From Archaeoglobus sp. (GTDB taxonomy: Archaea > Halobacteriota > Archaeoglobi > Archaeoglobales > Archaeoglobaceae), in NCBI GenBank assembly GCA_017656505.1, contig JACDNU010000017.1, forward strand, positions 1-47,108: a stretch of 47,108 bases of DNA, read 5' to 3'. The position numbers and the translations under genes were made by a program. How positions within the stretch are numbered: position 1 is the first letter of the stretch; the number at the start of each line of letters is the position of its first letter. Of this stretch, positions 14,252 through 18,038 are shown piece by piece. The notes under the pieces were generated by a model. It saw only the letters and a program-made list of their open reading frames with translations, was not told where the DNA came from and did not search any database.

Positions 14252-14689
14252 TCATCCAACCAGCTCAACCGCCTCTTCAGCCGAATCGGCAACAACCAAT
14301 CTCGGCAGTCTAATCTCCGGTTTTATCGCAACTACTTTCTTCCCCTCTTTAAGGGCTATTGCCATCTCAGAAATCGTTCCATAACCTCCACCAACGGCAA
14401 TAATCGCATCGCTGGAATGCACTATTATCATGTTCCTCGCATGTCCCATGTTTGTTGCTATGACAGCGCTGCAGTAGCGATTAGCATCCCTTTTAGAGGG
14501 AGTAGGAATGACTCCTATGACAAAACCGCCAGCATCTCTCGCCCCTTTCGCACTCGCTTCCATCACACCTCCGAGTCCGCCGTTTATCAGAATGTAGCCT
14601 TTCTCCGCTATAAGCTTTCCAACCTCATAGGCGGTTCTGTATAACTCTTCCCCGCAGTAAGAGCTCCCTATCACTCCGATCTGCTTCAT
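14252..14689 (-). CDS. TIGR00725/LOG-like Rossmann protein
   Basis: A 145-residue protein resembling the TIGR00725 branch of the LOG/DprA-like nucleotide-binding fold. Visible motifs are MKQIGVIGSSYCGEELY, INGGLGGVMEASAKGARDAGG and IAVGGGYGTISEMAIAL, the last corresponding to the P-G-G-x-G-T-x-x-E motif of LOG phosphoribohydrolases, with GGGYGT here. Activity in this subfamily is not established. ATG 14689 is chosen because the family N-terminus begins there; the frame is open a further 57 nt upstream but those residues are not conserved-looking. It is divergent from vapB, sharing a 99-nt intergenic region. Confidence 0.8.
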   Translation of the reverse strand: MKQIGVIGSSYCGEELYRTAYEVGKLIAEKGYILINGGLGGVMEASAKGARDAGGFVIGVIPTPSKRDANRYCSAVIATNMGHARNMIIVHSSDAIIAVGGGYGTISEMAIALKEGKKVVAIKPEIRLPRLVVADSAEEAVELVG

Positions 14690-14750
14690 AGGTGATAGAT
14701 TCTTTGGGAAAATATTTAATTTTAGGGTAATACCAGAAATCCTCAAGTTT

Positions 14751-14788: not shown

Positions 14789-15010
14789 ATGGCACATAAA
14801 ACGTTGACGATCTCGGAAGAGGCGTACAATGCACTGCGAAAATTGAAAGGCAAAGGCGAGTCTTTTAGCGATGTAATTATCAGGATAACGAAAAAGGCGA
14901 GTTTACTCGAATACATCGAATCGACAGACTTCCCGGAAGATTTAGTTGAGAAAGTTGAGGGAGTCTATGAATCTAGGGAATCTGTAAGAAGAAGGGTTTT
15001 TGAACTTTAA
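14789..15010 (+). CDS. vapB: VapB-type antitoxin (DUF217/UPF0330 family)
   Basis: A 73-residue antitoxin. The N-terminal KTLTISEEAYNALRKLKGKGESFSDVIIRI resembles the DUF217 family of archaeal VapB antitoxins, with a DNA-binding N-terminal half and a C-terminal toxin-wrapping tail (EGVYESRESVRRRVFEL). It should neutralise the PIN-domain toxin encoded next and repress the pair. No Shine-Dalgarno sequence precedes the ATG, in line with a leaderless transcript from the iteron-containing promoter. VapC begins 36 nt downstream. Confidence 0.88.
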   Translation: MAHKTLTISEEAYNALRKLKGKGESFSDVIIRITKKASLLEYIESTDFPEDLVEKVEGVYESRESVRRRVFEL

Positions 15011-15046
15011 TTGGAGTTGAATTGGTAACTGCGTTGAGGTGGTTAA

Positions 15047-15442
15047 ATGGTCTGTTTAGAAACGGATTTTCTTGTTGCACTTATGAGAAAAAACAAGAAT
15101 GCACTCGGCAAATTGAGAGAGCTCGTATCTAAGGGGGAAAGATTGTCTACCACTCCAATAAACGCTGCAGAACTATTTAGGGGTGTTTATTCTTCTGGAA
15201 GGGTTGAGGACAATCTCAAAAAGGTTAGGGGACTATTGGGCAGACTTGATTTGCTTGATTTCAACTTTGCAGCATCTGAGATTTACGGCCGAATTTCTTC
15301 GGAATTGGAGAAGGAAGGAGAACCTATCGGTGAGTTTGACGCTCTTATCGCTAGTATTGCCCTTGCCCACAATGAAAGGGTTGTAACGAGAAACATTAAA
15401 CATTTTGGGAGGGTTGAGGGGCTGGAGATCGAGGAATGGTGA
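15047..15442 (+). CDS. vapC: VapC-type PIN-domain ribonuclease toxin
   Basis: A 131-residue PIN-domain protein. The acidic metal-binding residues are visible: Asp7 in ETDFLVAL, Glu42 in NAAELFRGVY, and Asp98 in GEFDALIASIAL, with Asn116 in VVTRNIKHF near the fourth position. VapC toxins are Mg-dependent ribonucleases that cut tRNA or rRNA; the target here is unknown. GAGGTGGT a few bases before ATG 15047 supports the start. All catalytic residues are present, so the toxin is probably active and held by the upstream VapB. Confidence 0.92.
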   Translation: MVCLETDFLVALMRKNKNALGKLRELVSKGERLSTTPINAAELFRGVYSSGRVEDNLKKVRGLLGRLDLLDFNFAASEIYGRISSELEKEGEPIGEFDALIASIALAHNERVVTRNIKHFGRVEGLEIEEW

Positions 15443-15494: not shown

Positions 15495-16571
15495 ATGATA
15501 AACCGTTACATCGATCCAGAGAAAATAAATGTAAAGGAAGAATGCGCCGAGGTTGATGAAATCTACGCTGGTGAAAGGGTTGAAGGTATCAGTTTGAGAG
15601 GATTCGAGCTGGTTGAGAAGGCCGAAGATGTTGAAGACGGTATAGATCTCGTTCTGAACGGTGAAATAAAGGTTGCAGGGTTTCACGTTCTGGTAAGCGG
15701 CGATTTAAGCGAGGAGGCGGTTTCAGCCCTTGAGGCTTTGATTGGCGAAGTTCTGAACAGAATTAAAGGAGTCGAGTACAAGTTCAGGAAAGAGAAAGTT
15801 GTGGTAAATTTGGCAGACATGGATCAGAAAACATTCGAATGTATGGCCAAGCTTTTGTATGATGCTTTCAAGAAAATCCCGGCTGTTGATAGGGTTAGGG
15901 TTAAAGTAATCCTCGATGAAGGGGAGTTTGAAAAGGAACTTAATTATGCCGCTAAAATTCACGAAAAAAGAGAGAATCTCTTTAGAAAAAGCGAAGAGGA
16001 GGTGGATAAATTCTACATCTGCACTTCCTGCCAGTATTATCTGCCTGGCCATGGATGCGTTATATCGCCGGAAAGACCGTCTCCATGCGGTACAACTTGG
16101 ACCGAAGCCAAAGCAGCCGAGGAGCTTGAGGTCGTGAAGTATTACTCTCCTGCTGAAAAAGGTGAAAAAGTCGGCAGTGAGTACGAGGGCATTAACTCAG
16201 CCTTAAGTGCTGTAACTGAAGGAAAAATAAATAGAGTTTCACTCCATTCGGCCCTTAAAAATCCCCCTTCAACTGGACTGTATTCCGAGCTGATAATATT
16301 CTACGATCCAAGCCGCGATGCCTTCGGTATCGTTGACAGAGCTTATAAAGAAAAGACCCCTCTCGGCCTGACCTTTGACGAAATGGAGAAGATCATGGTT
16401 GGGCAGCAGGTTGAAGGATTCGTTGGAGCGAGTTATGTATATCTGAAAAGCGAGAAATTCTTGCAGGATGATGGTGGGTGGAAGAGGGTTTACTGGGTTT
16501 CTCCAAACGTTTACGATTACGTAAAGGAGTTTCTCGATCCTGATATATTGCAAAGGTTGAAGAAAGGGTAG
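15495..16571 (+). CDS. Acetyl-CoA synthase (CdhC/AcsB)-like protein lacking the dinickel site
   Basis: A 358-residue homologue of the CODH/acetyl-CoA synthase beta subunit (CdhC; AcsB C-terminal region). Cys176-x2-Cys179-x8-Cys188-x9-Cys198 with VISPERPSPCGTTWTEAKA reproduces the A-cluster cubane motif and its spacing. The C-terminal half keeps ACS hallmarks (FGIVDRAYKEKTPLGLTF, GFVGASYVYLKSEKFLQDDGGWKRV). However, the segment that in true ACS contains Cys-Gly-Cys, which binds the two nickels, reads S-T-G-L-Y here (Thr260-Gly261-Leu262). An iron-sulfur cluster is therefore likely but the normal Ni-Ni chemistry is not. No CODH subunits adjoin it; MoaD- and MoeA-like genes follow. Probably a paralogue with a new role. 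Confidence 0.8.
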   Translation: MINRYIDPEKINVKEECAEVDEIYAGERVEGISLRGFELVEKAEDVEDGIDLVLNGEIKVAGFHVLVSGDLSEEAVSALEALIGEVLNRIKGVEYKFRKEKVVVNLADMDQKTFECMAKLLYDAFKKIPAVDRVRVKVILDEGEFEKELNYAAKIHEKRENLFRKSEEEVDKFYICTSCQYYLPGHGCVISPERPSPCGTTWTEAKAAEELEVVKYYSPAEKGEKVGSEYEGINSALSAVTEGKINRVSLHSALKNPPSTGLYSELIIFYDPSRDAFGIVDRAYKEKTPLGLTFDEMEKIMVGQQVEGFVGASYVYLKSEKFLQDDGGWKRVYWVSPNVYDYVKEFLDPDILQRLKKG

Positions 16572-16636: not shown

Positions 16637-16906
16637 ATGGCTGTGGTTAAAGTGAAGCTTTTCGCTAACTTTCGTGAAGCAGCGGAAAAAGAGGTGGAGC
16701 TTGAAGCCGATTCTGTGGAAGGGTTAATTCGAGCACTTGTGGAGAAATACAAGAAGCTTGAAGAATTGATGTTCGAAGACGGGAAGCTGAGAGATTACGT
16801 TCACATAATGGTAAACGGGAGGCACATAAACCATTTGGACGGCTTGGAAACGCGTTTGAATGATAATGACATTGTTGCAATATTCCCTCCGGTGAGCGGT
16901 GGGTAG
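16637..16906 (+). CDS. MoaD/SAMP-like ubiquitin-fold sulfur carrier
   Basis: An 89-residue beta-grasp protein of the MoaD family ending in PPVSGG, the C-terminal di-glycine needed for adenylation and thiocarboxylation or for protein conjugation (SAMP). Internal motifs typical of the family are VKLFANFREAAEK, HIMVNGRHINHLDGLETRLNDNDIVAIFPPVSGG (read in parts). Its neighbours, a MoeA-like gene downstream and an ACS-like gene upstream, suggest molybdopterin synthesis or sulfur delivery, but archaeal MoaD-like proteins also serve tRNA thiolation and conjugation. The start ATG 16637 lies 65 nt after the ACS-like gene. Confidence 0.88.
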   Translation: MAVVKVKLFANFREAAEKEVELEADSVEGLIRALVEKYKKLEELMFEDGKLRDYVHIMVNGRHINHLDGLETRLNDNDIVAIFPPVSGG

Positions 16907-16942: not shown

Positions 16943-16970
16943 AATTAAGTATCGGGGGTATGCAGTGGTA

Positions 16971-18038
16971 ATGCAAATACCATCTTACAAAGAAGCTTTG
17001 AAAGTCGTATTGGATAGATTTGAGCCCTTAGATGCTGAAATCGAGAGGATAGATTCCTGTTTAAACAGAGTTACTGCGGAGGATTTAAGGGCGAAAAGGA
17101 GCATCCCATTCTCCGATGTTTCTAGGGTTGATGGCTATGCTCTCTCTAGTTCCCAAAATTACAGATGGGTGAACACGGGAGAAGTCCTGCCGGAAAGTTT
17201 CGACAGAGTTGTAAAGGTTGAAGACGTGGTTGAGGAGGATGGGAAACTTCTCTACAAGAAAAAACCCGGAAAATGGGAGAATGTAAGGAGGAAGGGAGAG
17301 GATATAAAGGAAGGAGAAGTGCTTTTGAAGAAAGGAAGTTTTATTGATGCTTTGAAGCTTGTTACTTTAAAGAACTGCGGAATCAAGGAGGTGAAAGTCT
17401 TCAGAAAGCCCAGAATTGCTATTTTAGCAACGGGAGATGAGCTCGGAAAGGAAATTCCCGCAACCAACCATCTTATGCTCTCTTTTCTGCTGGAAAGGTT
17501 GTGCGAGGTGAGATCGTACTTTGCGAAGGATAGCAGAGATCAGATAGAGTCGTTTCTGCTCAGAAAAGGTTACGATGCTCTTATCACAACCGGTGGAACT
17601 TCGAAGGGTAGAAAGGATCTGCTGAGAAAAGTTTTGACGGAGATTGGCGAGATCTATTTTGAAGGAAGCAAAATTAAACCTGGGAGAACGGCCTTCTTCG
17701 GCGAAATTAGGGAGAGTGGAACACCTGTCTTCTGTCTGCCTGGGACACCTTCTGCATGTCTTTCTGCTTTCATGCTTTACGTGAAGCCGGCCGTTCTTAA
17801 AATGGTTGGGCTGAAGGAGTCTGCTTTTAAGGCGACCATTTCCGGAAGCATTTCCCCCTCTAAGAATACAAGATTCATCCTACTGAATCTCGATGGTGGG
17901 AAAGCAACTCTGTTAAATGGAGAATTTTTCAGGAGTTTGCTGTCTGCAAACTGCTATTTCGTCTTAGAAGAGGGTATGGGGGTTGAGGAGGGAGAAGCTG
18001 TTGAAGTCCATCCTTTAAGTCTTCATCCTGAATTTTAA
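16971..18038 (+). CDS. Compact MoeA-like molybdopterin molybdenumtransferase
   Basis: A 355-residue protein of the MoeA family, which inserts molybdate or tungstate into adenylylated molybdopterin. Family motifs are DVSRVDGYA (canonical DNSxMDGYA), RRKGEDIKEGEVLLKKGS, ILATGDELG, TTGGTSKGRKD, IKPGRTAFFG and FCLPGTPSACLSAF. It is about 50 residues shorter than usual (about 400): the loop region after DGYA is cut down and the segment after TGDELG is abbreviated. ATG 16971 is preferred over GTG 16965. The pairing with MoaD-like and ACS-like genes suggests a shared task; an alternative is an ordinary, divergent MoeA paralogue. Confidence 0.85.
   Translation: MQIPSYKEALKVVLDRFEPLDAEIERIDSCLNRVTAEDLRAKRSIPFSDVSRVDGYALSSSQNYRWVNTGEVLPESFDRVVKVEDVVEEDGKLLYKKKPGKWENVRRKGEDIKEGEVLLKKGSFIDALKLVTLKNCGIKEVKVFRKPRIAILATGDELGKEIPATNHLMLSFLLERLCEVRSYFAKDSRDQIESFLLRKGYDALITTGGTSKGRKDLLRKVLTEIGEIYFEGSKIKPGRTAFFGEIRESGTPVFCLPGTPSACLSAFMLYVKPAVLKMVGLKESAFKATISGSISPSKNTRFILLNLDGGKATLLNGEFFRSLLSANCYFVLEEGMGVEEGEAVEVHPLSLHPEF

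Follow-up and report, generated by a model that had tools for sequence, protein, structure and literature searches.

Acetyl-CoA synthase (ACS) is considered to be among the most ancient enzymes, and the cubane and nickel pair of its A-cluster are usually treated as one unit. Its Cys-Gly-Cys motif holds the distal nickel and bridges to the proximal nickel. The equivalent in ACS of Cys179 of the protein described here is the cysteine that bridges to the proximal nickel, and the alcove phenylalanine is Phe512 in Moorella ACS. In the Methanosarcina thermophila structure 9c0s, the alcove phenylalanine of the A3 domain is Phe195 (PMC11474084). In Geoglobus ahangari, GAH_00919 was reported as an "additional copy" of the CODH/ACS beta subunit, and the loss of a nickel site was not mentioned (PMC4600277). 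This gene is very probably a direct orthologue of the ACS-like gene described here, because it lies near the NiFe hydrogenase GAH_00910-00912, as in our locus L037. The ACS family is known; in the literature searched, we found no description of ACS paralogues without the nickel site, and published annotations treat the members as ordinary beta subunits.

We analyzed a stretch of 47,108 nucleotides from Archaeoglobus sp. (GCA_017656505.1, contig JACDNU010000017.1, positions 1-47,108), hereafter the window, in which no RNA features were found at gathering thresholds. An ACS-like gene in the window had been described in a sequence-only reading. Beyond that reading, we report a flanking gene for a Moco-carrier-like protein, an apparent operon with moaD and moeA, forms of about 175 amino acids, and similar losses in gut Methanosarcinaceae. 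What is new here is the molybdenum/tungsten cofactor gene neighborhood.

An ACS-like protein with the fold of CdhC

The gene is as follows:

15495..16571, plus strand: ACS-like protein of 358 amino acids, with the A2 and A3 domains of CdhC and without the Cys-Gly-Cys (open reading frame with ATG start; profile, PDB, and model matches)

The sequence-only reading had called this frame an ACS homologue, and this was confirmed. In a profile search, PF19436 (ACS/CODH beta subunit C-terminal) matched at 8e-40, and the NCBIfam CdhC models matched nearly the whole protein at 1e-60 to 1e-85. The PDB chains of ACS matched down to 7e-40, the best being 9c0s, the beta subunit of M. thermophila. These values place the homology to ACS far beyond chance. 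Yet the NCBIfam scores were under the cut-offs (205.5 bits against 355.95 for TIGR00316; 288.3 against 372 for NF003379), and the curated CdhC equivalog level was not reached. The AlphaFold model had a mean pLDDT of 88.8, with residues 1-30 modelled poorly, and a Foldseek search with this model returned ACS alone below an E value of 0.001 (TMq up to 0.81).

On the one hand, the protein resembles CdhC (PF03598 and PF19436; 9c0s and 9c0t) in its A2 and A3 fold, in the identical spacing of the cubane cysteines, and in most of the A3 core. On the other hand, it differs from CdhC in the nickel site, the alcove, and the A2 domain, as described below, it lacks the C-terminal extension of CdhC, and its gene lies outside the cdh operon.

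Cubane cysteines and the lost nickel site

The cysteine codons and the former nickel site are located as follows:

16020..16022, plus strand: Cys176 codon, cubane ligand 1 (invariant in 16 orthologues, also in the short forms)
16029..16031, plus strand: Cys179 codon, cubane ligand 2 (invariant in 16 orthologues, also in the short forms)
16056..16058, plus strand: Cys188 codon, cubane ligand 3 (invariant in 16 orthologues, also in the short forms)
16086..16088, plus strand: Cys198 codon, cubane ligand 4 (invariant in 16 orthologues, also in the short forms)
16275..16283, plus strand: Gly261-Leu262-Tyr263 under the ACS Cys-Gly-Cys, both nickel-site cysteines lost (ungapped alignment to CdhC)
15543..15545, plus strand: Cys17 codon (kept in 14 of 15 long forms; absent from CdhC)
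15840..15842, plus strand: Cys116 codon (invariant in the long forms, 16/16; variable column in CdhC)

The motif Cys176-x2-Cys179-x8-Cys188-x9-Cys198 has the ACS spacing that had been claimed for it. The claimed loss of the nickel site also held, since neither nickel position carries a cysteine, but the residues had been misassigned: Thr-Gly-Leu (16272-16280) lies one residue upstream of the true counterpart, Gly261-Leu262-Tyr263. Across the alignment of the 16 long-form orthologues, the Cys-Gly-Cys is replaced throughout by Gly-[Leu/Asn]-[Tyr/Phe]. A Cys-Gly-Cys elsewhere in the protein or an error in the sequence had been named as possible refutations; the motif occurs nowhere in the protein, whose only cysteines outside the cubane four are 17 and 116, and the loss is common to 16 genomes.

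The position of the alcove phenylalanine is occupied by Tyr182, and tyrosine is found here in 15 of 16 long forms, compared with phenylalanine in all 42 CdhC sequences. Among the columns invariant in CdhC, the ACS-like proteins kept 40 of 66 in A3 and 6 of 25 in A2. The 19 altered A2 columns include the Trp and the Arg of the segment G-x-M-H-L-N-Q-R-x3-W-x-R, a region that we assume may lie near the CoA site.

The predicted loss of the nickel site is well supported by the alignment. With the nickel-site cysteines, the alcove phenylalanine, and most conserved A2 positions gone, the prediction that a normal A-cluster cannot be carried is also supported. We consider it very likely that the protein is not an acetyl-CoA synthase, in line with the sequence-only reading, which had excluded normal acetyl-CoA synthesis.

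Distribution and selection

Sixteen genomes from five genera of the Archaeoglobales, which are heat-loving archaea, carry the long-form gene, the genome of the window among them; the carriers presumably include Ferroglobus placidus, Geoglobus ahangari, Geoglobus acetivorans, and A. sulfaticallidus. All 16 kept the four cubane cysteines and lost the Cys-Gly-Cys, and about 60 columns are invariant over these diverged orthologues. Two more genera have a short form of about 175 amino acids, which comprises only the A3 domain with the cubane cysteines, and we take one of its carriers to be A. veneficus. The short form also has the four cubane cysteines and has lost the Cys-Gly-Cys. It carries an extra cysteine directly before the first cubane cysteine (Cys-Cys-x2-Cys in all), and its model is again ACS A3 (pLDDT 79, TMq up to 0.77). 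Short and long forms have the derived residues Ser178, Pro197, Glu298, and Ser336-Pro337 in common. Between close pairs of both forms, with pairs of saturated dS left out, dN/dS was 0.05-0.23. A sequencing error or a pseudogene was ruled out by this purifying selection and by the loss common to 16 genomes.

Canonical ACS genes exist elsewhere in the genome of the window. The complete cdhC, whose presence had been raised as a question, lies on contig C48, where genes for CdhC (with HTSCGCFE), a CooC-like ATPase, CdhD, and CdhE stand in a row, and this CdhE carries its own cluster motif. Prismane-family matches on contigs C7 and C60 are as long as CODH alpha subunits. The genome has one CdhD/CdhE set only, which ruled out a second, dedicated set of genes for the corrinoid protein. 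No CODH or corrinoid genes were found beside the ACS-like gene, either at the window locus, as had been noted, or at the Archaeoglobales loci compared. Another CdhC match exists in every genome with a complete paralogue, yet CdhC is present in most genomes of the order. In the A. fulgidus-like genomes, the ACS complex occurs without the ACS-like protein.

Ancestry and similar losses in gut methanogens

In a tree of 67 sequences, from which the Cys-Gly-Cys columns were left out, the long and short forms made one clade (100/100) on a long stem. A grouping of this clade with the Archaeoglobales' own CdhC was rejected (AU p=0.0017). The ACS-like gene therefore appears not to have been copied recently from the resident CdhC, and a recent duplication of the order's own gene was ruled out. 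The deep placement of the clade is unsure because long branches are present. We tentatively regard the ACS-like protein as an old offshoot of archaeal ACS (CdhC) that is predicted to be nickel-free; taken whole, with the cofactor role discussed below, this reading falls a little short of an even chance.

CdhC without the Cys-Gly-Cys was also observed in Methanimicrococcus and a relative (L072:7713-8966, L079:7755-8987, L080:7995-8960, L091:2031-3296) and in Ca. Methanofrustulum (L082:7618-9009), with Gly-Ser-Val or Gly-Ala-Ser at the motif position. Like the ACS-like protein, these proteins keep the four cubane cysteines. Unlike the Archaeoglobales gene, theirs are followed by CdhD/CdhE-family genes; at L072, L080, and L082, two CdhD-family genes follow, the CdhE-like one seemingly without the cysteine motif of its own cluster. 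In M. blatticola, CdhCDE are listed as anabolic or possibly CO-detoxifying, and molybdopterin biosynthesis is reported to have been lost (PMC9723798). The Archaeoglobales paralogues and these proteins stood apart in the best tree; a joint clade had an AU p of 0.39, so the tree allows one or several losses.

Loss of the Cys-Gly-Cys as a common trait of second CdhC copies was considered and rejected. Among extra loci in 18 genomes of the phylum, the motif was present in all copies readable across the site; L173 was broken in the frame read, and the fragments L171 and L172 gave no motif.

Gene neighborhood

The neighbors of the ACS-like gene are as follows:

14252..14746, minus strand: TIGR00725/PF18306 protein, homologous to Moco carrier proteins (6y01 and 2iz5-2iz7 as best PDB matches); its gene stands head-to-head with the ACS-like gene
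16637..16906, plus strand: MoaD/SAMP1-like protein with a ubiquitin fold, encoded after the ACS-like gene as the next member of the apparent operon (PF02597, NF041918)
16965..18038, plus strand: MoeA-like protein (PF03453/PF00994/PF03454)

The TIGR00725/PF18306 gene is the most conserved neighbor. Of the 18 genomes in which the arrangement could be decided, 12 have it next to the ACS-like gene in head-to-head orientation, and these belong to five of the seven genera (adjoining in G000, G011, G018, G019, G020, G024-G028, G030, and G031; not adjoining in G010, G013, G022, G039, G040, and G042). G009, G012, and G023 were left out of this count, as the gene stops close to the edge of a contig there. 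The Chlamydomonas entries 2iz5-2iz7 are Moco carrier proteins, as is 6y01, from Rippkaea orientalis (PMC7470044). The homology to these carriers concerns the product of the neighboring gene, not the ACS-like protein itself, and the archaeal neighbor is a putative carrier.

Within the genus of the window, moaD and moeA lie downstream of the ACS-like gene, on its strand and in an apparent operon with it, in 6/6 genomes. The MoeA encoded here is the third, lowest-scoring, and most divergent MoeA of the window genome. In four to five Geoglobus genomes, a MoaD-MoeA pair lies about 15-19 kb from the ACS-like gene, and neither cofactor neighbor is found in Ferroglobus and genus g12. G016, of genus g3, lacks the ACS-like gene; there, open reading frames resembling moaD and moaE (named by eye) stand next to the carrier-like gene. 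Most Archaeoglobales possess the genes for the carrier-like protein, MoaD, and MoeA, whether or not they have the ACS-like gene, so that co-occurrence is not strict. MoaD-MoeA as an obligate partner was ruled out, since such units occur without the ACS-like gene. Some general synteny is retained in the region, and the conserved neighbors may reflect inherited synteny and, in effect, one or two independent events.

Several further features of these loci were observed. A gene for a VapC-like PIN toxin (15047-15442) and an open reading frame of 73 amino acids, which may encode its antitoxin, lie between the carrier-like and ACS-like genes (window positions 14789-15442); no such insert was seen at the related loci with which the window was compared. 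Several genera have a YjbQ-family gene (UPF0047) immediately after the carrier-like gene, whether or not the ACS-like gene is beside it (L048:8070-8471, L044:8468-8866, L190:5073-5483, L192:5250-5654). MoaD-like and MoeA-like matches share one long open frame at G022:C1:1689963-1691354 and likewise in G023, G033, G055, and G056, which suggests a MoaD-MoeA fusion in several Archaeoglobales.

Possible role of the ACS-like protein

Judged from sequence and model, the protein has kept the A2 and A3 fold and the four cubane cysteines, with both nickel-site cysteines lost and most conserved A2 positions rewritten. From this anatomy we infer that it would hold one [4Fe-4S] cluster, would carry no nickel pair, and would make no acetyl-CoA. 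The proposal of an iron-sulfur protein with a new role in the sequence-only reading was a fair one, because the four putative ligands of the cluster are absolutely kept. Considering the conserved second copy, the lost nickel residues, and the neighboring molybdenum/tungsten cofactor genes, the protein has probably been put to new use. The neighborhood hints that it might have been recruited to the supply of molybdenum/tungsten-pterin cofactors, as an iron-sulfur accessory protein (a redox partner, chaperone, or metal holder) near MoaD, MoeA, and the Moco-carrier-like protein. We give this cofactor context somewhat less than an even chance. The whole reading, a nickel-free [4Fe-4S] derivative of ACS recruited to molybdenum/tungsten-pterin cofactor handling, is our best explanation, which we hold as nearly, though not quite, probable. 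A more specific version is rather doubtful, namely that the fold of a carbon-fixation enzyme was rebuilt into a maturation factor for molybdenum/tungsten-pterin cofactor, in which the cubane of the former A-cluster, without nickel, would serve as electron donor or metal-holding site for cofactor that MoaD-MoeA makes and the neighboring carrier protein transports.

As the main rival, the protein could be a corrinoid-protein partner that serves the ACS complex of its own organism as an accessory or regulatory subunit and docks on CdhDE or CODH through the conserved A3. With its [4Fe-4S] cluster, it would return the corrinoid to the active state, or else inhibit or adjust the transfer of methyl groups, such as that to methionine synthase. 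This role would suit the fact that A3, the domain of the A-cluster, is the conserved part and the sole part left in the short forms, and that the CdhC of gut Methanosarcinaceae without the motif directly precedes two CdhD-family genes. In addition, Ferroglobus, Geoglobus, and Archaeoglobus have MesC methionine synthases, for which the corrinoid protein is the predicted methyl donor (PMC7857596). The accompanying CdhC match in all genomes with the complete paralogue also fits, but says little because most genomes of the order have CdhC. However, the gene was never beside cdh genes in the Archaeoglobales loci compared, and the A. fulgidus-like genomes manage an ACS complex without the protein. 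Moreover, the A-cluster in 9c0s packs directly on CODH (PMC11474084), and the rewritten loop would alter this contact. On balance, we consider this partnership unlikely, though by no means negligible.

The gained cysteines could instead point to a metalloenzyme in which the former nickel site binds a different metal, with Cys179 and newly gained residues such as Cys17 or Cys116 in the long forms, or the extra cysteine in the short forms, as ligands. Their conservation (16/16 for Cys116, 14/15 for Cys17, and all short forms) would favor this, whereas the two vacated positions hold Gly and Tyr/Phe and offer no Cys or His, the region of Cys17 is modelled at low confidence, and the gained cysteines are not the same in the two forms. 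The single or different metal suggested in the sequence-only reading is not borne out; no new candidate ligand appeared at the old nickel positions despite these gains, and we judge such an enzyme improbable. The ACS fold and the overall conservation of A3 might still suggest a functional ACS in which other residues stand in for the Cys-Gly-Cys ligands. This is very improbable given that the nickel-site thiolates, the alcove phenylalanine, and most conserved A2 positions were all lost together and that an intact CdhC exists in the same genome. Decay into a functionless gene, for which the patchy distribution and the loss of a whole domain in the short forms could speak, is less credible still: it is largely refuted by the dN/dS values in both forms, and the invariant columns and the confident fold oppose it as well.

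A conserved, selected lineage with only the cubane ligands suggests a use of the ACS fold without nickel chemistry, and it would offer a natural control, predicted to be nickel-free, for studies of the A-cluster. It also serves as a warning that genome annotations, among them the additional beta copy in G. ahangari and the CdhC assigned to gut methanogens, credit organisms with more capacity for acetyl-CoA synthesis than is warranted. If the cofactor link is true, the protein would be a new player in archaeal molybdenum/tungsten cofactor supply.

Other atypical ACS homologues

Full-length bacterial-type ACS of 675-718 amino acids with Cys-Ser-Cys for Cys-Gly-Cys was observed in Methanomassiliicoccaceae (L094:7092-9128, L104:6999-9026, L105, and L107); at L094 and L104, its gene adjoins genes for a P-loop ATPase and a RACo-like corrinoid activator. 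A Eubacteriaceae MAG (L110:6831-9086) encodes an ACS homologue of 751 amino acids on a very long branch, with no CODH genes nearby, in which the cubane cysteines are present and VSGFAGAQ stands in place of the Cys-Gly-Cys.
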